The position numbers and the translations under genes are program-made. DNA of 55,135 bases from positions 1 through 55,135 of the forward strand of contig CALVCQ010000012.1 in NCBI GenBank assembly GCA_944326115.1, in the 5' to 3' direction. The notes under the pieces were generated by a model. The model was not told where the DNA came from. It worked only from the letters and a program-made list of their open reading frames with translations, and did not search any database. This DNA is from Candidatus Gastranaerophilales bacterium. Its GTDB lineage: Bacteria > Cyanobacteriota > Vampirovibrionia > Gastranaerophilales > Gastranaerophilaceae. This document shows, piece by piece, positions 28,386 to 43,722 of this stretch (position 1 is its first letter; each line of letters opens with the position of its first letter).

Positions 28386-28805
28386 ATGACAGATAAAAGA
28401 TTAAGCAGTGAACAGGATTTTATAGAATATTTAAAAAAGATTAATTTTTCAAAGCATCTGGCAAAAATAGCAAAAAAGTTAAAAGAAAAAAAAGTTATAA
28501 TCTACGGTGCAGGTGCATTTTTTCAAACTATTAACAGAGAATACGATTTATCATGCCTGAATATTATAGCAATTGCCGACAGAAAGTTTGTTAATCACGA
28601 AGACGGTGAAGAATTTTTAGGTTACAGACTTTGCAGCCCTGATGAAATGGAATCTCTGCAGACTGATTATGTGCTTGTAAGTATGATAAATTTTATAAAT
28701 GTAATAGAAGACTTAGAAGAGACAAGTCTGAAAAATGCAAAAGTAAAAATTAAACCTTTAATAAATAAACCTTTTATTGATATCTTAAAAGAGCTCTGGA
28801 GTTAA
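28386..28805 (+). CDS. Small Rossmann-type protein A of the glycan cassette
   Basis: 139 residues. Core: KKVIIYGAGAFFQTINREYD (nucleotide-binding GxGxxF loop at about 39-45), IIAIADRKF with an acidic residue ending strand 2, GYRLCSPDEM and DYVLVSM. This layout is seen in small sugar-cassette proteins and in N-terminal domains fused to glycosyl- or methyltransferases. Its own catalytic role is unknown. More than half of its residues match protein B at 31986 by eye. It ends 6 bases before the glycosyltransferase start, so it is the first gene of the cassette. Confidence 0.7.
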   Translation: MTDKRLSSEQDFIEYLKKINFSKHLAKIAKKLKEKKVIIYGAGAFFQTINREYDLSCLNIIAIADRKFVNHEDGEEFLGYRLCSPDEMESLQTDYVLVSMINFINVIEDLEETSLKNAKVKIKPLINKPFIDILKELWS

Positions 28806-28811
28806 AATCAG

Positions 28812-29792
28812 ATGGCACAGAACTCTATGATTTCAATTATATTACCGGTATACAATGCTCAGGAATATATAGAAAAGTGTCTTGATTCTTTATTGACACA
28901 AACATATAAAAATATTGAAGTTTTATGTGTTGATGATTGTTCTGCGGATGGTTCATTAAAGATAATAAAAGATATTGCACAAAAAGATAAAAGAATAAAA
29001 GTTTTATCAACAGAAACAAACAGCGGACCTGCTACTGCAAGAAACATCGGGCTTGATAATGCACAAGGCGAATTTATTATGTTTTGCGATAACGATGATA
29101 AGTATTCACAAAATATGTGTGCAGTTATGATTGAGGCAATGAAAAAAAACAATGCGGATTTAGTTGCTTGTAAAGCCAATATAGAAAATAAATATCTGGA
29201 TGAAGAACTCGCAAATTATATTAACTGCAATCCGACAGGAACGTTTAATCTTGAAGGTCATTTGAAACATATTATAAACGTACTTTTATGGAACAAAATT
29301 TATAAAAAGTCTTTTATAGATGAATACAATATAAGATTTCCTGATGGCGTTTCTGCAGAGGATGATGCCTTTATTATTCAATACCTCAGCGTAATTCAGA
29401 AATATTGCGGGTTAAAAGATTGTTTATACAATCATCTTTTCAGGACAACTTCGTATACTAATACAATAGGGAGAGCTAAATCCGATGAAAAAAAATTTGA
29501 TAAAATAAAAATAATAAAAAATATGTATGATTTTTTGATAAAAAACAATATTTTTAAAAGAGAAGAAGAACATTTTCAAAACAGAGTGAGAGCGGAGCTT
29601 CGCTATATGTTTTTATATGCAAAAAGTAACGACGACAAAAAAGAAATAATTCGTCTTTATAACAATTTTGTAAAAAATGCAGAATATTTAGATTATAAAA
29701 AGTATAATTACCACTATTTTTATAAAAGAATGTACAAAAGGCTAAATCCGGTATTACTGTTTTCTTTGATAAAAAAATGCTGCTGGTTTTAG
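28812..29792 (+). CDS. Family 2 glycosyltransferase
   Basis: 326 residues, GT-A fold. N-terminal nucleotide-sugar site ISIILPVYNAQEYIEKCLDS and VLCVDDCSADGS; SGPATARNIGLDNAQG; DxD-like metal motif in MFCDNDDKY (residues 93-96); then an acceptor part with GVSAEDDAFIIQY, where the ED pair is the likely base region. The C-terminus is basic, YKRMYKRLNPVLLFSLIKKC, and may associate with the membrane. It transfers a sugar to a surface glycan or lipid carrier; donor and acceptor cannot be told. Confidence 0.92.
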   Translation: MAQNSMISIILPVYNAQEYIEKCLDSLLTQTYKNIEVLCVDDCSADGSLKIIKDIAQKDKRIKVLSTETNSGPATARNIGLDNAQGEFIMFCDNDDKYSQNMCAVMIEAMKKNNADLVACKANIENKYLDEELANYINCNPTGTFNLEGHLKHIINVLLWNKIYKKSFIDEYNIRFPDGVSAEDDAFIIQYLSVIQKYCGLKDCLYNHLFRTTSYTNTIGRAKSDEKKFDKIKIIKNMYDFLIKNNIFKREEEHFQNRVRAELRYMFLYAKSNDDKKEIIRLYNNFVKNAEYLDYKKYNYHYFYKRMYKRLNPVLLFSLIKKCCWF

Positions 29793-29806
29793 ATAAAGAG
29801 GTTACG

Positions 29807-31093
29807 ATGAAAAGCCCGAAAGATATGAAAATTATACAGATAGATATTACAAATGCCTGCGTAAACAGGTGTTCTAACTGTACAAGATTCTGCGGACATC
29901 ATACTAAGCCGTTTTTTATGGATTTTGAAACATTCAAAAAGGCTGTTGATTCTTTTGAAGGATGGGAAGGCTGCGTCGGTATAATAGGAGGAGAGCCTAC
30001 GCTGCACCCTGAAATAGAAAAATTTATTGATTATTTAAGAGAAAAAAGAATTGGTGCTCCGCTTAAACTTTCAAGAGAACCTATTTTTGATATGCAGGAA
30101 CATATTTATAAAAAGTTGAATAATACATGTTCAAAAATTGGTTTCTGGTCATCATTAAACAAAGGATACTACAGACATTTTGAAACTATAAATGATTCTT
30201 TCGACTGGCAGCTTTTAAATGACCACAATAATAAATGTTTGCATCAGGCAATACTTATGGCACGCAAAGATTTGGGAATAAGTGATGAAGAATTTAAAAA
30301 AAGAAGGGATAATTGCTTTGCGCAAAACACCTGGTCTGCAACAATTACACCGAAAGGGGCTTTTTTCTGTGAAATTGCAGCTGCTCTGGATATGCTTTTT
30401 AACGGTCCTGGCGGATGGGCAATAGAAAAAGGATGGTATAACAGAACGCCTGATGAATTCACAGAACAGCTGCAATGGTGTGAGTTGTGTTCTCTATGTC
30501 TTGATGTACCCCAGAGAATATCCTGTGAAGATATTGATGATATTACGCCTACTCTTTTAAAAAAACTTCAAAAAATAAACTCTCCTAAAATAAAAGCAGG
30601 AAAATATTGTCTGCATGATATCAATGATTATAAAAAACACAAACAGGTATACAAGTCTTTTGAACACTGTGATGATTATATGCAGGCAGGTTCAAATATA
30701 AGGACAACAACAGACAACAGAAATTATTACCCGAGAGATTTTGTAATAGTAAATTTAGAAAATGCGTCCTCTTTTATAAACAAAAAAACAGACTGGGTTA
30801 TACTTTCAAAAAATAATAAAGATGCAAAAAAAATAAAAAACTATTTAAAAAAAATGGTTATCAACCCCGGATGCCTGTACAGATATAAAGGAGAATACAT
30901 CTTTAACCCGCTGGCAAGAAGTATCAGGGATAAAATAAAATCTCCACAAAATTTTGACTTAAAAAAACTGACAACATATTATGTTTCTGACAAAATAATA
31001 GATATAAAAATAAAAAAAACTGATTACTTATCACAAATTTTTGGCAAGAAATTTGTCAAAATAATAAAAATATTTAAATATATTTGGTTTTAA
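29807..31093 (+). CDS. Radical SAM protein with SPASM-like cysteine region
   Basis: 428 residues. The ATG at 29807 has AGAGG 6 bases upstream; an upstream in-frame codon would overlap the previous gene. The 4Fe-4S/SAM motif ACVNRCSNCTRFC has Cys18, Cys22 and Cys25 (Cx3Cx2C), followed by IIGGEPTLHPE. A second cysteine region resembles a SPASM/twitch domain: a Cys before SATITPKGAFFCEIAAA, then QWCELCSLCLDVPQRISCE. The last ~150 residues are a lysine-rich domain of unknown kind. By analogy with radical SAM enzymes acting on amino sugars it may modify (oxidise or epimerise) a sugar of the glycan; peptide modification is the alternative. Confidence 0.85.
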   Translation: MKSPKDMKIIQIDITNACVNRCSNCTRFCGHHTKPFFMDFETFKKAVDSFEGWEGCVGIIGGEPTLHPEIEKFIDYLREKRIGAPLKLSREPIFDMQEHIYKKLNNTCSKIGFWSSLNKGYYRHFETINDSFDWQLLNDHNNKCLHQAILMARKDLGISDEEFKKRRDNCFAQNTWSATITPKGAFFCEIAAALDMLFNGPGGWAIEKGWYNRTPDEFTEQLQWCELCSLCLDVPQRISCEDIDDITPTLLKKLQKINSPKIKAGKYCLHDINDYKKHKQVYKSFEHCDDYMQAGSNIRTTTDNRNYYPRDFVIVNLENASSFINKKTDWVILSKNNKDAKKIKNYLKKMVINPGCLYRYKGEYIFNPLARSIRDKIKSPQNFDLKKLTTYYVSDKIIDIKIKKTDYLSQIFGKKFVKIIKIFKYIWF

Positions 31094-31111
31094 AATCAAA
31101 AAGGATTGTAT

Positions 31112-31957
31112 ATGAAAATACTAGTAACAGGAGCAAACGGATACATTGGTTCACATGTGGTAAAAGCACTTCTTGATGCTAAAAATGAAGTGATTGCCGT
31201 TGATTTTAAGCACGATAATATTGATAACAGAGCAAAAAAATTTGATACAGACATATTTGACTTTGATAAAAATTATTTTGAACTTTTTGAAAAGCCTGAG
31301 GTATTGATCCACTTTGCCTGCAAAGATGTCCCTGTACATAACTCTATATATCATATTGAATCAATCCCCCTGCATTTTAAATTTATAAAAAATCTCGTTG
31401 ATAACGGACTTAAGCAGGTAATAACAGTAGGTTCAATGCACGATGTAGGGTATTTTGAAGGTGCTGTAAAAGAAAATACAGAACCGCATCCTATGACTTT
31501 TTACGGTGTGTCAAAAGATACTTTAAGAAGACTTGTTGAAATTTATACAGACGATAAAGATGTTGTCCACCAGCATCTTAGATTTTTCTACACATACGGC
31601 GATGACGAAAAAAGCTCGGGTTCGATTTTTGCAAAAATTTTTCAAATGGCAAAAGACGGACAAAAAACATTTCCTTTTACGGACGGGAAAAATCAATTTG
31701 ACTACATAGAAATTAATGAACTGGCACAACAGATTACGGCAGTAGCAATGCAAAAAGAAATATCAGGAATAATCAACTGCTGCTCCGGTAAACCTGTCGC
31801 AATAAAAGATCAGGTGGAATTCTTTATAAAAACACACGGTCTTGACATTAAACCGGATTTTGGCAAATATCCTTCAAGAAAATATGATTCTCCCTGCATA
31901 TACGGAGATATCACAAAAATACAAAAAATTTTAAATTCATCAAAACATATAAAATAG
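31112..31957 (+). CDS. NAD-dependent epimerase/dehydratase (SDR superfamily)
   Basis: 281 residues, slightly short for the extended SDR family. N-terminal NAD loop TGANGYIGSHV (residues 6-16), Asp31 ending strand 2 (AVDF), Ser108 in TVGSMH, and the catalytic Tyr131/Lys135 pair in FYGVSK. The C-terminal half has QFDYIEINELAQQI for substrate contact. AAGGA lies before the ATG at 31112. It probably interconverts or reduces a nucleotide sugar for the GT2 enzyme upstream. It follows the radical SAM gene by 18 bases. Confidence 0.9.
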   Translation: MKILVTGANGYIGSHVVKALLDAKNEVIAVDFKHDNIDNRAKKFDTDIFDFDKNYFELFEKPEVLIHFACKDVPVHNSIYHIESIPLHFKFIKNLVDNGLKQVITVGSMHDVGYFEGAVKENTEPHPMTFYGVSKDTLRRLVEIYTDDKDVVHQHLRFFYTYGDDEKSSGSIFAKIFQMAKDGQKTFPFTDGKNQFDYIEINELAQQITAVAMQKEISGIINCCSGKPVAIKDQVEFFIKTHGLDIKPDFGKYPSRKYDSPCIYGDITKIQKILNSSKHIK

Positions 31958-31985
31958 TACAATAGTTGACAGGAGCATATAAAAG

Positions 31986-32387
31986 ATGGATAAATTGGAA
32001 CATTTGCAATATTTGGAAAAAATTAATTTTTCAAAACGACTAAAAAATTTAGAAAAAAAATACAAAAATAAAAAAATTATAATATACGGTACAGGTCAAT
32101 TTTTTCAGGTGATTAATGAAAATTACGATCTTGGAGGTCTGGATATTATTGCAATTGCAGACAGGAAATTTTATGAACACAAAGAGGATGAAACATTTTT
32201 GGGATACAAAGTTTGCTCACCCGATGAAATGGTAAAACTAAAGCCTGATTGTGTACTCGTTGCTACTTTAAATACCGTAAATTTAATAGAAGAACTGGAA
32301 TATACAGTATTGAAAAAATCAAAAATCAAGTTAAAACCATTAATAAACAAACCTCTTTTTGACATCTGGAAAGAGATATGGGGATAA
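31986..32387 (+). CDS. Small Rossmann-type protein B, paralogue of the 28386 product
   Basis: 133 residues with the same layout as protein A: EKINFSKRL, KKIIIYGTGQFFQVINENYD, IIAIADRKF, FLGYKVCSPDEM, and an almost identical tail LKPLINKPLFDIWKEIWG (protein A has IKPLINKPFIDILKELWS). It is the last gene of the cassette, so the cassette is bracketed by two copies. The function of neither is known. Confidence 0.7.
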   Translation: MDKLEHLQYLEKINFSKRLKNLEKKYKNKKIIIYGTGQFFQVINENYDLGGLDIIAIADRKFYEHKEDETFLGYKVCSPDEMVKLKPDCVLVATLNTVNLIEELEYTVLKKSKIKLKPLINKPLFDIWKEIWG

Positions 32388-39180: not shown

Positions 39181-40965
39181 TTATTGCAACATATTTGATC
39201 TGTATTCTTCTTCTGGTAAGAAAGGATACATATTTTCTAATGACGGAGAAACCATTGTTCCGTCAGGAAGTTTTTTTGAAGAAAGTTTCGGAGTAAAAAT
39301 ATAATCAGGATCGACAACCACATCACATATCACCGGATTTTTTGCCTCCAGCATTTTTTGTATAAATGAGTCTATATCATCAGAATTATCAAGCCTGAAA
39401 GAGTCTATACCAAAAGCCTTTCCGATTTTTACAAAATCAGGTAAAGAGACACCGCTTGTTCTGCCGGCTCCGGTATTTCTTCCGTCAAAGAAATTGTTCT
39501 GAGTTTGCTTAATCGAGCTGTAGCCGTCATTGTTTATTATGAAAATTTTAATAGGCAGATTATTGTGAACCACTGTTTGCAATTCCTGCAGATTCATCAT
39601 AATAGAACCGTCGCCTGCCAGACAAATAGTACTTTTTTTGTCATTCGCAAGACAAGCGCCTATTGCCGCAGGAAGGTCATACCCCATAGATGCATCACCT
39701 GAGTTTGAAAAATATCTTACATTTTCTTTCATAACTGCAGTTTGCATACTTGCAACAATAGCCGTACCGTTTGCTGTTACACAGACATCACCTTTTTGCA
39801 TTAGTTCTGACAGTCTGTGTATAAAATGATATACATTTATTTTTTTGTCTTTTTGTATATACTCAGGTGTATTTTTAAAGGAATATTTTTCTTTTAACCG
39901 TTGGCAAAAAGCAAGCCATTCGCTGCGTTCAATTTTTGCGGCTTTTGCTTCTAAAACAGGAAGAAAATCCTCAAGATTTGTATTTATAGCAATGTCAGGC
40001 TTTACAAGAGGTTTTTCAAGTTCTGCAGAGTCTATATCAACCATTACTTTAAAAGCCTTTTTGGCAAAATTTTCCCAGTTGTAACTGACCTGACGTATGT
40101 TATTTCTTGTTCCTAAACATAAAACAAAATCGGCATTTTGAAGTGTAAAATTGGCTGCTCTCTGCCCTATTGTACCGATTCTGCCGATAAAATTCGAACA
40201 ATCATAAGGCAGCAAATCCATTCCGTTAAATGTTGTAACAACGGGGATATTCAGCTTATTTAATAGTTTAAAAAAAGTTTGTCTCATTCCTGAAAGTCTT
40301 ATTCCATGACCTGCGACAATAAGAGGTCTTATTGAGTGTTCAAGTTTGTTTAATACTGCATCAATTTTAAAAGAAGCCTCATTTAATTCTGTATTACATG
40401 TTATATCAAAATCTATAAGGTCGTTTTCTTCAACTACTGCAGACTGAACATTCATTGGAATGTCAAGCCACACCGGACCTTTACGTCCTGTTGTTGCTGC
40501 ATATACGGCTCTGTCTAAATGATATTTTATTTCCTCGGGTTTTGTAACCATTACCGCATATTTTGTTAACGGCTTGACCACACTGACAATATCAACCTCC
40601 TGATCACCGAGCTGTCGTAATTTTAAATCAGGACACGATGCTAAGGTTGTTGAATATTTAACCTGACCTGAAATATATAATACCGGCACGGAATCAGTCC
40701 ACTGTCCGAAAACGCCGTTCAGACAGTTCAATCCTCCGGGACCAGTTGTAACGTTCACAACGGCAAGTTTTTGTTTTACTCTTGCATAACCTTCCGCAGC
40801 AATGGCACACGCCTGTTCATTATGATTACAGATATAAGGAATATAACGCCCCAGACTGTCATTAAGGTGCATTGCGCCGCCGCCTGAAACCATAAAAAAG
40901 ACATCTGTTTGATAAACTTCTTTCAGCCTTTTTGCAATATAATCAGAAACTTTAATTTGTGCCAT
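39181..40965 (-). CDS. Thiamine-pyrophosphate enzyme, acetolactate-synthase-like
   Basis: 594 residues, the length of acetolactate-synthase/benzoylformate-decarboxylase family enzymes. ATG at 40965 with AGGA 8 bases upstream is preferred over one 39 bases earlier. Catalytic Glu50 in NHNEQACAIAAEGYAR; NVTTGPGGLN; central domain from about 200; TPP/Mg site GDGSIMMNLQELQ to NNDGYSSIKQTQ. It should act on a 2-oxo acid. No regulatory subunit (ilvN) and no ilvC are nearby, so branched-chain synthesis is not the obvious role. It is the last gene of an operon after an HpcH-type aldolase (10-base gap). Confidence 0.88.
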   Translation of the reverse strand: MAQIKVSDYIAKRLKEVYQTDVFFMVSGGGAMHLNDSLGRYIPYICNHNEQACAIAAEGYARVKQKLAVVNVTTGPGGLNCLNGVFGQWTDSVPVLYISGQVKYSTTLASCPDLKLRQLGDQEVDIVSVVKPLTKYAVMVTKPEEIKYHLDRAVYAATTGRKGPVWLDIPMNVQSAVVEENDLIDFDITCNTELNEASFKIDAVLNKLEHSIRPLIVAGHGIRLSGMRQTFFKLLNKLNIPVVTTFNGMDLLPYDCSNFIGRIGTIGQRAANFTLQNADFVLCLGTRNNIRQVSYNWENFAKKAFKVMVDIDSAELEKPLVKPDIAINTNLEDFLPVLEAKAAKIERSEWLAFCQRLKEKYSFKNTPEYIQKDKKINVYHFIHRLSELMQKGDVCVTANGTAIVASMQTAVMKENVRYFSNSGDASMGYDLPAAIGACLANDKKSTICLAGDGSIMMNLQELQTVVHNNLPIKIFIINNDGYSSIKQTQNNFFDGRNTGAGRTSGVSLPDFVKIGKAFGIDSFRLDNSDDIDSFIQKMLEAKNPVICDVVVDPDYIFTPKLSSKKLPDGTMVSPSLENMYPFLPEEEYRSNMLQ

Positions 40966-40975
40966 AATCCCTATC

Positions 40976-41794
40976 CTATTCGGAAAGTCCGCCTGCCTGT
41001 TCAATTAAAGATTTATATCTTTTCTCCAGTAGTTCCAGTCTTGTTTCATCTTCTCTAAAAATCATTCCGTAAAATTCTCGTTTGTTTCTTAGCCACATTA
41101 ATTCAAAGCCGACAGCTTTTAAAATTCCTTTATCGGCATTCTCAGACTGTAATGCTTTTTGTGCATCAAAAATGACTTTTCTTGTCTCATATTTTGTAAG
41201 ACTGTTTTGAGGTAATTTTTTAAAAAACGGCAACGAATAAGCAGATACACCGCCTCCGATTGCAAGCTGTTTATTATATTCTTTTGTCTTCATTGCAATC
41301 TTTTGTGCAATATCAAAAATCACATCGCTGTTTATATCTTCTCTTGACATTCCCATAGAACCCGTCATATCAACCCTTCCGAGAGTTATTCCGTCTATAT
41401 CTTCAAATTCTTTTGTTTGTATGATTTCATTAAGGTTGTTAAACCCTGTTATTGTTTCAATATTTATTAAAAATTTAACATCGTTCCATTCCTCTTTTGG
41501 AAAAACATATTTTGTCGCATTTACATATTTTTTAAGAGCATAAGCGGTTTCTATCATAGGAGCGACTATTGTATTTACTCCTATTGTTCGTGCTTCAAAT
41601 AAATCTTTAATCGCTTCGCAGCCTCCTATTTTTATTGTGAGTTCAAGACCTGCTTTTGTAACGATTTCCTTGAGGCGTAGCGCCTCCTCCATTCTTGTTC
41701 CTTCTGCTTCAAATTCTGCTTTTACACCTGCAACGCAATGATTTTCTTTTAAATCGGTAAGCGCAGCCACCATTTTTTTTTCTAAGCTATTCAT
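40976..41794 (-). CDS. HpcH/HpaI-type aldolase (citrate-lyase-beta-like TIM barrel)
   Basis: 272 residues. Barrel motifs: VAGVKAEFEAEGTRMEEALR (conserved Lys/Glu region), IVAPMIETAYALKKYV, NIETITGFNNLNEII (metal Glu) and GITLGRVDMTGSMGM (metal Asp). Enzymes of this superfamily make or break C-C bonds with pyruvate or acetyl-CoA-type enolates and need a divalent metal. It lies between a DtxR-type regulator (1-base gap) and the TPP enzyme (10-base gap). Substrate unknown. Confidence 0.84.
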   Translation of the reverse strand: MNSLEKKMVAALTDLKENHCVAGVKAEFEAEGTRMEEALRLKEIVTKAGLELTIKIGGCEAIKDLFEARTIGVNTIVAPMIETAYALKKYVNATKYVFPKEEWNDVKFLINIETITGFNNLNEIIQTKEFEDIDGITLGRVDMTGSMGMSREDINSDVIFDIAQKIAMKTKEYNKQLAIGGGVSAYSLPFFKKLPQNSLTKYETRKVIFDAQKALQSENADKGILKAVGFELMWLRNKREFYGMIFREDETRLELLEKRYKSLIEQAGGLSE

Positions 41795-41795
41795 T

Positions 41796-42224
41796 TTATT
41801 TGTACAAATCCTTTAATCTATTACAAAACTCTGCATTCTCTTTTATATAATCCTGTATAAAATAAGAAAATATATGTATTCTTTCAAACATTTTTTCTGT
41901 CATAATATGCTCCATTTTGCAAGCATTTACTACAGCTTCTTCTTCATTAAGATTTAGAATATTTTTAAGAAAATTTGCCATTACTTCATGACGCAGCAGA
42001 ATCTTTTTTGCTGTTTCTTCTCCTTTTTTTGTCAGTGTGATAGGAGAATACGGCTCATAATTTATCAGCCCTTTTTCGGATAAATTGTTAAGAGCACCGG
42101 TAACGGATGCTTTTTTTACATCAAGAAATTTTGCAATATCGGTAACCTTTGCACAGCCGTTTTTTCGGGATTCCACATATATTGTTTCCAGATAATCTTC
42201 CTGACTCGGTGTTAATTTATCCAT
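41796..42224 (-). CDS. DtxR/MntR-family metal-dependent regulator
   Basis: 142 residues: N-terminal winged helix (TPSQEDYLETIYVESRKNG; VTDIAKFLDVKKASVTGALN) and dimerisation domain, without the C-terminal SH3-like domain, as in MntR. Metal ligands by family position: Asp10 and Glu13 as in MntR, but Cys102, Glu105 and His106 (ACKMEH) plus His79 as in DtxR, so the set is mixed; iron or manganese cannot be told. First gene of the operon with aldolase and TPP enzyme, and divergent from pgi over 76 bases, where it may autoregulate. Confidence 0.9.
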   Translation of the reverse strand: MDKLTPSQEDYLETIYVESRKNGCAKVTDIAKFLDVKKASVTGALNNLSEKGLINYEPYSPITLTKKGEETAKKILLRHEVMANFLKNILNLNEEEAVVNACKMEHIMTEKMFERIHIFSYFIQDYIKENAEFCNRLKDLYK

Positions 42225-42300
42225 TTTTTATCCTTTTAGATAATATTAACATAATTAACTTTTGAGCGCACAAAATTTTATTCACGGGATTTAAATAATT

Positions 42301-43722
42301 ATGATAAGCAATGTTTCAACAAATACACAGTATAAAATTTTAAATAATACAACTTCATTAACAGCTGATAAAAACAAGTCGGATATTCATTTTTCACAAT
42401 GCACGACATCTGAAAAAACGCTAAAGACAATACCGGTACCGACTCTTCTTGCATATATGACGAACAAATATGCTGATAACAATGTCCTTGTTGAGTTTTT
42501 TAACACACTTTCTAGTGATAAAATGATGCAAAAATATGCGCAAAACGCACGGGCATGTGCTGATAATCTGGCACAAAGAGCCGGTAAAAAAGGGCAGGTC
42601 TTAAACTGGATAGATGTATTAGCAAAAAATCAGCTGCAGAGGCTTGATGAAATATATGCACTTGCTGATTCTTTAAAATCAAACGGCAGTAAAAAGCTTG
42701 TTGTGATAGGTATAGGCGGTTCAAAGCACACTGTTGAAAATATATTAAGACTAAACGGAAAAGGAGAAAATGTATACTTTCTCTCTGCTGCGGACCCTCA
42801 AAGCATAAAAGAGTTCTTTGAAAGAAATAATCTAATAGAGGAAAAACCGGCAGTGCTTGTAGTATCAAAGTCCGGTACAACCCTGGAGCCTTCTTATGAT
42901 TTTGACTGTGTGAGAAAAATTCTCGGTGATGATTTTAAAAATTATGTATGTATTACAGATGCTGACAAAACAAAAAGCAAACTAAGACAAATAGCGGAAG
43001 AAAACGGTTATAAATGCGGAATAATCCATGACGATTGCGGCGGCAGATTCGGTGCATTTGATGATCATTCTCTTGCTGCTCTGGCATATTGCGGTATGTC
43101 AAAAGATGAGATGAAAAGAATGCTTGAAGCTTCTTTAAAAGCACAGAAGAATTTTTTAAATCCTGATATTACAAAAAATCGAGCACTGCAGCGTGCTGCC
43201 TTTAATGCCGAATGTATATTAAACGGAAAACAAAACCAGTATGATTACTATTTCGGTGACAGATTTGAAGGCACTGCTTTATGGAATACGCAATTGAAAA
43301 AAGAATCTCACAAGTCACTTTACAAGCCCTCAGGCGATTTAATAGCCCCTGCTTTTTTACACAATTCCACAGAGGCAGACCTTGATGAAGGCAATACAAA
43401 TTCTTTTTATACATTTAATACAATCAAAAATGACAACAGCAGTGATTACAAGCTATATAATGCACTAATAAAAGGCAGCCTGAAAGCATACAGCGACAGA
43501 CATCCTGTGTCGCTTGTTTCCTTAAAAGATTTGTCAATTGAATCAATTGCGGAATTTATTGAGTTAAAACATTTTGAGACAATATATACAGGTATGATGA
43601 TAAGAGCAGTGCTGAATAAAGATTCAGCACCGCCTGAAATTTTGCCTGAGGTTTTACAGCCTCATGTTAATATTTATAAAAATGAAGTGAATAAGATTTT
43701 AAATACTACTGCTAAAAGTTAA
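42301..43722 (+). CDS. pgi: Glucose-6-phosphate isomerase
   Basis: 473 residues. Interconverts glucose-6-phosphate and fructose-6-phosphate. Motifs: LVVIGIGGSKHTVEN (sugar-phosphate loop), LVVSKSGTTLEPSYDF, GGRFGAFDDHSLAALAY (signature), FLHNSTEADLDEG and the C-terminal LQPHVNIYKNEV with the catalytic Lys. The N-terminal ~35 residues are Ser/Thr/Asn-rich and poorly conserved-looking, and the ribosome-binding site is weak, so the true start may be further in. The 3' end overlaps the convergent gene at 43719 by 4 bases. Confidence 0.92.
   Translation: MISNVSTNTQYKILNNTTSLTADKNKSDIHFSQCTTSEKTLKTIPVPTLLAYMTNKYADNNVLVEFFNTLSSDKMMQKYAQNARACADNLAQRAGKKGQVLNWIDVLAKNQLQRLDEIYALADSLKSNGSKKLVVIGIGGSKHTVENILRLNGKGENVYFLSAADPQSIKEFFERNNLIEEKPAVLVVSKSGTTLEPSYDFDCVRKILGDDFKNYVCITDADKTKSKLRQIAEENGYKCGIIHDDCGGRFGAFDDHSLAALAYCGMSKDEMKRMLEASLKAQKNFLNPDITKNRALQRAAFNAECILNGKQNQYDYYFGDRFEGTALWNTQLKKESHKSLYKPSGDLIAPAFLHNSTEADLDEGNTNSFYTFNTIKNDNSSDYKLYNALIKGSLKAYSDRHPVSLVSLKDLSIESIAEFIELKHFETIYTGMMIRAVLNKDSAPPEILPEVLQPHVNIYKNEVNKILNTTAKS

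Follow-up and report, generated by a model that had tools for sequence, protein, structure and literature searches.

We analysed a 55,135-nucleotide stretch of DNA (the window), comprising positions 1 to 55,135 of contig CALVCQ010000012.1 of a Candidatus Gastranaerophilales bacterium, a gut relative of cyanobacteria in the Melainabacteria lineage (GCA_944326115.1; the contig is one of 92 in a 2.15 Mb assembly that is 96% complete), and within it three open reading frames (ORFs) on the minus strand that encode a predicted DtxR/MntR-type metal-dependent regulator (41796..42224, 142 aa), a divergent aldolase of the HpcH/HpaI fold (40976..41794, 272 aa) and a thiamine diphosphate (ThDP)-dependent carboligase resembling YerE and JanthE (39181..40965, 594 aa). 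The gaps between them are 1 and 10 bases, and the original prediction, made from these letters alone, that the three genes form one tight operon is supported by the ORF coordinates. The 10-base gap holds if translation of the ThDP gene starts at the ATG at 40965; taken mechanically, the ORF begins upstream at the TTG at 41004 and would overlap the aldolase gene, and we preferred the ATG because the first start of the homologue at relative locus L107 is the equivalent ATG. The same gene order with near-zero spacing recurs in four other species, and purifying selection acts on all three genes (dN/dS about 0.02-0.15 in pairs where it was computable); the three-gene arrangement is more than chance. 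On the 5' side of the operon, an intergenic stretch (42225..42300, minus strand) separates the regulator gene from a divergent gene for a protein like glucose-6-phosphate isomerase (PGI), and it is here that a promoter and operator would be expected; no consensus promoter was found in 42225-42300, and promoter and terminator matches were no better than chance.

The ThDP enzyme scores above the Pfam cut-offs for PF02776, PF00205 and PF02775, and its closest solved relative is JanthE (PDB 8rph; 403 bits, E 1.9e-119), followed by acetolactate synthase II (246 bits, E 8e-72). Aligned with JanthE, it carries the canonical ThDP cofactor motif GDG...NN, and H-N-E-Q with the catalytic Glu. The acetolactate-type chemistry that had been suggested for this protein did not find support: it reaches 334.6 bits against the TIGR00118 acetolactate synthase cut-off of 538.35, and a separate housekeeping acetolactate synthase, at 808.1 bits by the same model, is encoded elsewhere in the genome. 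Such a separate, above-cut-off synthase occurs in all five genomes that have the three-gene unit, so that the identity of the window protein as the housekeeping enzyme was ruled out, and in a phylogenetic tree long, supported branches part the two. Judged by its sequence, the ThDP enzyme is a carboligase of the YerE/JanthE type, not a housekeeping acetolactate synthase. In a plasmid collection it was found in no record at E 1e-80.

The aldolase is further removed from characterized proteins. It matches PF03328 with 49.7 bits (gathering score 25) and falls far under the cut-offs of the function-specific curated models (35.7 against 369 bits for HpaI). Its AlphaFold2 model (pLDDT 93.7) superposes on class II pyruvate aldolases with Z 18-19, and E113 and D142, invariant in 41 sequences, align with the metal-binding Glu and Asp of HpaI. 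The view that both enzymes belong to 2-oxo-acid chemistry is supported. An invariant Lys, K55, lies near the strand that bears Arg70 of HpaI, although this placement comes from an ungapped extension whose register is uncertain; in HpcH/HpaI enzymes Arg70 presumably binds pyruvate and His45 is presumably catalytic. Because no His is invariant in the family and a Lys stands near the Arg70 position, the chemistry may differ in detail from that of HpaI. Three records of the plasmid collection hold a homologue (37-47% identity), the one from Novosphingobium unannotated.

The surroundings of the two enzyme genes in relatives are those of sugar synthesis. We scanned 146 genomes of the order, of which 49 had an aldolase match, 26 of them close (>330 bits). 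Besides that of the window, 48 genomes thus carried a match, and the gene surroundings were fetched for 40 of these. The ThDP enzyme stands beside the aldolase in 23 of the 26 genomes with a close aldolase, and the pairs of relatives are found in CDP-deoxysugar clusters with RfbF, RfbG and RfbH. In many relatives glucose-1-phosphate cytidylyltransferase, CDP-glucose 4,6-dehydratase and RfbH follow one another upstream, a series that constitutes the route to CDP-4-keto-3,6-dideoxyhexose. RfbH lies within the same 14-19 kb stretch in 15 of these 23 genomes and somewhere in the genome in 22; it is present in 30 of 31 genomes with a close ThDP enzyme against 16 of 115 others (p=2e-18, relatedness uncorrected). 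The genome of the window has RfbF, RfbG and RfbH above cut-off by TIGR02623, TIGR02622 and NF011936 (L132), as a separate run on contig C22 amid unrelated genes and not beside the pair. Between the aldolase and ThDP genes of the 23 genomes there is a HAD-IA phosphatase in 11, a HAD-IIA phosphatase in four, a short-chain dehydrogenase/reductase (SDR) with an AroB-like phospholyase in five (one of which is also among the 11), and none of these in four, the window included.

At L039:9679-11414, L126 and L129 an SDR and a cyclizing phospholyase of the TIGR04425 type, slightly below cut-off, take the place of the phosphatase, and the same arrangement occurs in one gammaproteobacterial metagenome-assembled genome.

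We surveyed 42 places at which the ThDP enzyme or its homologues occur, counting a neighbour if it lay within three genes. At 37 of them there is a 2-oxo-acid-forming carbon-carbon enzyme, namely the aldolase at 23, a NeuB-type synthase at 10, an HMGL-like protein together with an HpcH/HpaI aldolase at three and a DmpG-type aldolase with acetaldehyde dehydrogenase at one. The remaining five comprise two without such a neighbour (G021 and G109:C4), two cut by contig ends (G026 and G011) and one in G109 where PanB stands beside the ThDP enzyme; we left PanB out of the donor enzymes because its other neighbour clusters with acetolactate synthases of the housekeeping kind. Fifteen control loci around the regulator, with 277 genes in all, contained no match to the donor-enzyme types. 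A close ThDP enzyme occurs without a close aldolase in eight genomes; six of them have a NeuB-family gene no more than three genes away (split into two pieces in G028), and the other two are cut by contig ends. In G023 and G043 NeuB occupies the very slot of the aldolase, in the order RfbH, epimerase, HAD, NeuB, ThDP, and NeuB-type genes also lie near more distant ThDP homologues in G048, G024, G032 and G140:C1. The HMGL-like combination stands near distant homologues in G101, G108 and G075, and the DmpG-type aldolase (above cut-off by TIGR03217) with its acetaldehyde dehydrogenase beside one in G109; DmpG-type enzymes handle 4-hydroxy-2-oxopentanoate. Well-supported branches of the ThDP tree require the aldolase/NeuB label to have changed three times. 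That unrelated enzymes fill one slot points to a property common to them, namely that each makes a 2-oxo acid, the donor that a decarboxylating carboligase needs. Comparison with relatives suggests that the branches would be made by exchangeable enzyme modules. In the literature that we searched, which left subscription journals mostly outside, we found no description of a pairing between YerE-like enzymes and those of the NeuB or HpcH/HpaI types.

At L160:8427-11957 and L159:2144-5663, both in CDP-deoxysugar clusters, a NeuB-family synthase takes exactly the aldolase slot, with an HAD phosphatase on one side and the YerE-like enzyme on the other. In G115 (L052:6700-12300) two full aldolase genes and a split or partial copy stand in tandem. 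Just upstream, on the opposite strand, is a NeuB-type gene that shares 89% identity with its counterpart at L160; the locus gives the impression of being in transition from one donor module to another. An acetaldehyde dehydrogenase, a 4-hydroxy-2-oxovalerate aldolase and a YerE-like homologue are consecutive at L166:12878-16600, a candidate erwiniose-like pathway, and at L167:5606-10590, L168:5062-10000 and L169:6179-11140 the ThDP homologue comes after an HAD protein, an HMGL-like/MptE-like fusion and an HpcH/HpaI aldolase. A different cluster, seen at L182:962-8890, L181 and L172:2849-9300, has a NeuB-type gene adjoining a distant ThDP homologue, along with genes that by eye appear FabZ-like, carrier-protein-like, AMP-ligase-like and acyl-reductase-like.

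We propose, with a probability of about 0.68, that the aldolase and the ThDP enzyme form the branch-making half of a pathway to a C-branched, higher-carbon surface sugar, and that the regulator may tie their expression to manganese or iron; as to the type of pathway, there is good evidence for branched-sugar synthesis of the YerE/ErwE kind. The aldolase would join pyruvate to an aldehyde, probably phosphorylated, to give a 4-hydroxy-2-oxo (2-keto-3-deoxy) acid, from which the HAD phosphatase encoded between the two genes in most relatives would strip the phosphate, and RfbF, RfbG and RfbH would make CDP-4-keto-3,6-dideoxyhexose from glucose-1-phosphate. The YerE/ErwE-like enzyme would decarboxylate the 2-oxo acid and add the acyl anion to the ketone of this CDP sugar, a carboligation that would create a tertiary-alcohol branch point, and a reductase or epimerase and a glycosyltransferase would finish and use the branched sugar. 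In the small clade to which the window belongs, the pair has ended up directly behind a lone DtxR/MntR-type gene, with which it is presumably co-transcribed, and its expression may follow the level of Mn or Fe. A broader reading we put forward only tentatively, as less likely than not: the YerE-like enzymes of these gut bacteria would work with exchangeable donor modules (the aldolase, NeuB-type, sialic-acid-synthase-like enzymes, or further aldolases), each making a 3-deoxy-2-ulosonic acid that the ThDP carboligase would graft whole, by decarboxylation, to a CDP-4-keto-deoxy sugar. The products would be large branched sugars not yet described, and in one clade a DtxR-type regulator that senses Mn/Fe would switch this branch.

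Several observations weigh against the proposed sugar pathway. Three of the 26 genomes with a close aldolase lack the ThDP enzyme, and it accompanies no weak aldolase homologue in the 15 such loci that we fetched. HpcH enzymes use a catalytic His, and the aldolase family here has no invariant or near-invariant His. The plasmid homologue from Ilyobacter (Fusobacteriota; 37% identity, L184:9001-9774) adjoins genes for aconitase, a 2-hydroxyacid dehydrogenase and a member of the isopropylmalate dehydrogenase family, a carboxylic-acid context by which the aldolase fold serves other roles elsewhere. G076, one of the five species with the three-gene unit, has no RfbH orthologue. The genome of the window lacks an orthologue of the c4-type phosphatase (best match 23% identity), and the c19-type phosphatase gave no match in seven genomes, in a search that had no positive control and is uninformative.

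The regulator matches PF01325 (70.8 bits) and PF02742 (52.6 bits) above cut-off, and its closest solved relative is MntR of Bacillus subtilis (E 3e-18); its 87.5 bits fall short of the cut-off of 138 of the MntR equivalog model NF003025. The putative metal ligands D10, E13, H79, C102, E105 and H106 are kept in the five operon orthologues and three congeners that we aligned. The three-gene unit is present in five species, that of the window and those of G076 (= L109), L106, L107 and L108, which form one clade in both the aldolase and the ThDP tree (the count of 2 for the operon-clade label in the first tree is due to L179, a duplicate of L032). The regulator adjoins the pair in two of the 26 close-aldolase genomes and in four of 26 loci of a second set of relatives, one of them the G076 species. 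The expectation that all three genes are conserved together therefore holds for the aldolase and the ThDP enzyme and fails for the regulator, which is their neighbour in this single clade. Because regulator orthologues (71-75% identical) stand without the pair in the congeners G140, G108 and G101, the regulator probably joined the pair late.

The link between the regulator and the pair could be incidental, a product of rearrangement that permits at most read-through, with the regulator acting on distant genes and the pair free of metal control; we give this nearly even chances, and it touches only the metal-control part of our proposal. The orthologues in G140, G108 and G101 have other neighbours, G101 even retaining the PGI-regulator arrangement, the 15 control loci around the regulator are devoid of such enzymes, and alignment of the upstream regions of eight regulator genes brought out nothing beyond a short core rich in A+T, too little to define an operator. 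On the other hand, five species share the order, with 0-1 base between the DtxR and aldolase genes, or an 8-base overlap in L108, despite flanks that changed at least twice (PGI is upstream in three species, other genes in L106 and L107), and all three genes are under purifying selection; tight junctions, changed flanks and selection favour a working operon. Metal control of the enzyme pair, read from the sequences, is plausible, if unproven. As to other targets, no metal transporter was recognised by eye beside the regulator orthologues in 14 loci. As FeoB_C was without a match in all five genomes searched (7 of 14 control genomes were positive), they offer no distant feoB as a target, and regulation of feoB was rejected.

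For the pair itself, three other explanations can be set against the sugar pathway. The loss of the phosphatase and other cluster genes in this clade might have left a decaying remnant that makes no sugar, as the absence of a phosphatase between the genes in the window's genome and in G076, and of RfbH from the latter, could be taken to indicate; we consider this unlikely, given that dN/dS is 0.02-0.09 for both enzyme genes in all pairs with computable dS and that RfbH is found in the genome of the window and in those of L106, L107 and L108. Plain acetolactate or other branched-chain (carbon-chain) metabolism, with the aldolase an incidental neighbour, would suit the three standard ThDP domains and the 55 NCBIfam matches, led by acetolactate synthases; all those shown fall under their curated cut-offs, however, and with the separate synthases and the long tree branches described above this becomes very unlikely. 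Hardly credible is a metallophore precursor, in which the HpcH/HpaI-fold enzyme would act under metal control as the citrate synthase SbnG does in the synthesis of staphyloferrin B: the first gene is a metal regulator and SbnG, at Z 18.9, ranks with the best structural matches, but every HpcH/HpaI aldolase scores about 18-19, a tie in which SbnG does not stand out, and in relatives the pair sits among CDP-sugar genes. On this tie and this context the candidate was rejected; by eye, no siderophore-type genes were recognised among the window ORFs or the annotated genes of relatives, a survey that included no siderophore profile search. Among the products suggested at the outset, then, the surface sugar is supported by the CDP-sugar context of relatives, and the metallophore, with no siderophore-type gene recognised by eye near the pair, is not supported.

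Elsewhere in the window, the divergent PGI-like protein (42301-43722) has a top curated match of 105 bits against a cut-off of 443, and positions 28386-32387 hold a small surface-glycan-like run, named by eye as a glycosyltransferase, a radical-SAM-like protein and an epimerase, flanked by two similar proteins of 133-139 aa.

C-branched surface sugars are rare, and more than 200 YerE-like enzymes have been predicted, for most of which the sugar is unknown (PMC12247030). If the adjoining enzyme makes the donor, the chemistry of the branch could be predicted from the neighbouring gene. A divergent aldolase family would then gain a function, as would an enzyme pair with the look of acetolactate synthase plus citrate lyase. 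If the metal-regulator link is real, the make-up of the surface sugars in an uncultured gut lineage would depend on the supply of metal.

Among the nearest known systems is that of ErwE and erwiniose in Pectobacterium atrosepticum, where a YerE-like ThDP enzyme is reported to prefer 4-hydroxy-2-oxo acids as donors and to act on CDP-4-keto-3,6-dideoxyglucose (PMC12247030); here the operon starts with a metal regulator, and the donor would come from a divergent enzyme of the HpcH/HpaI fold. YerE, in the synthesis of yersiniose A in Yersinia pseudotuberculosis, likewise performs carboligation onto a CDP-4-keto-3,6-dideoxy sugar (PMC12247030) but takes pyruvate directly, whereas the carboligase here is linked to an enzyme dedicated to forming a 2-oxo acid. 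JanthE of Janthinobacterium, the closest solved relative of the ThDP enzyme, is a YerE-like carboligase whose natural substrates are not yet known and whose unusual CDG motif (PMC12188165) sets it apart from the window protein, which has GDG. The window aldolase shares fold and metal-ligand Glu/Asp with the class II pyruvate aldolases of the HpcH/HpaI group and differs from them in its identity of about 14% and in the lack of an invariant His. The regulator resembles B. subtilis MntR in family and in its length of 142 aa, with a Cys replacing Glu99, and it resembles the MntR of Porphyromonas gingivalis (PgMntR) in a mixed Mn/Fe-type site of Asp, Cys, Glu and His; PgMntR is reported to combine Mn- and Fe-specificity elements in a site of D19, C108, E111 and H112 (PMC4805248), and differs in having two extra FeoA domains.

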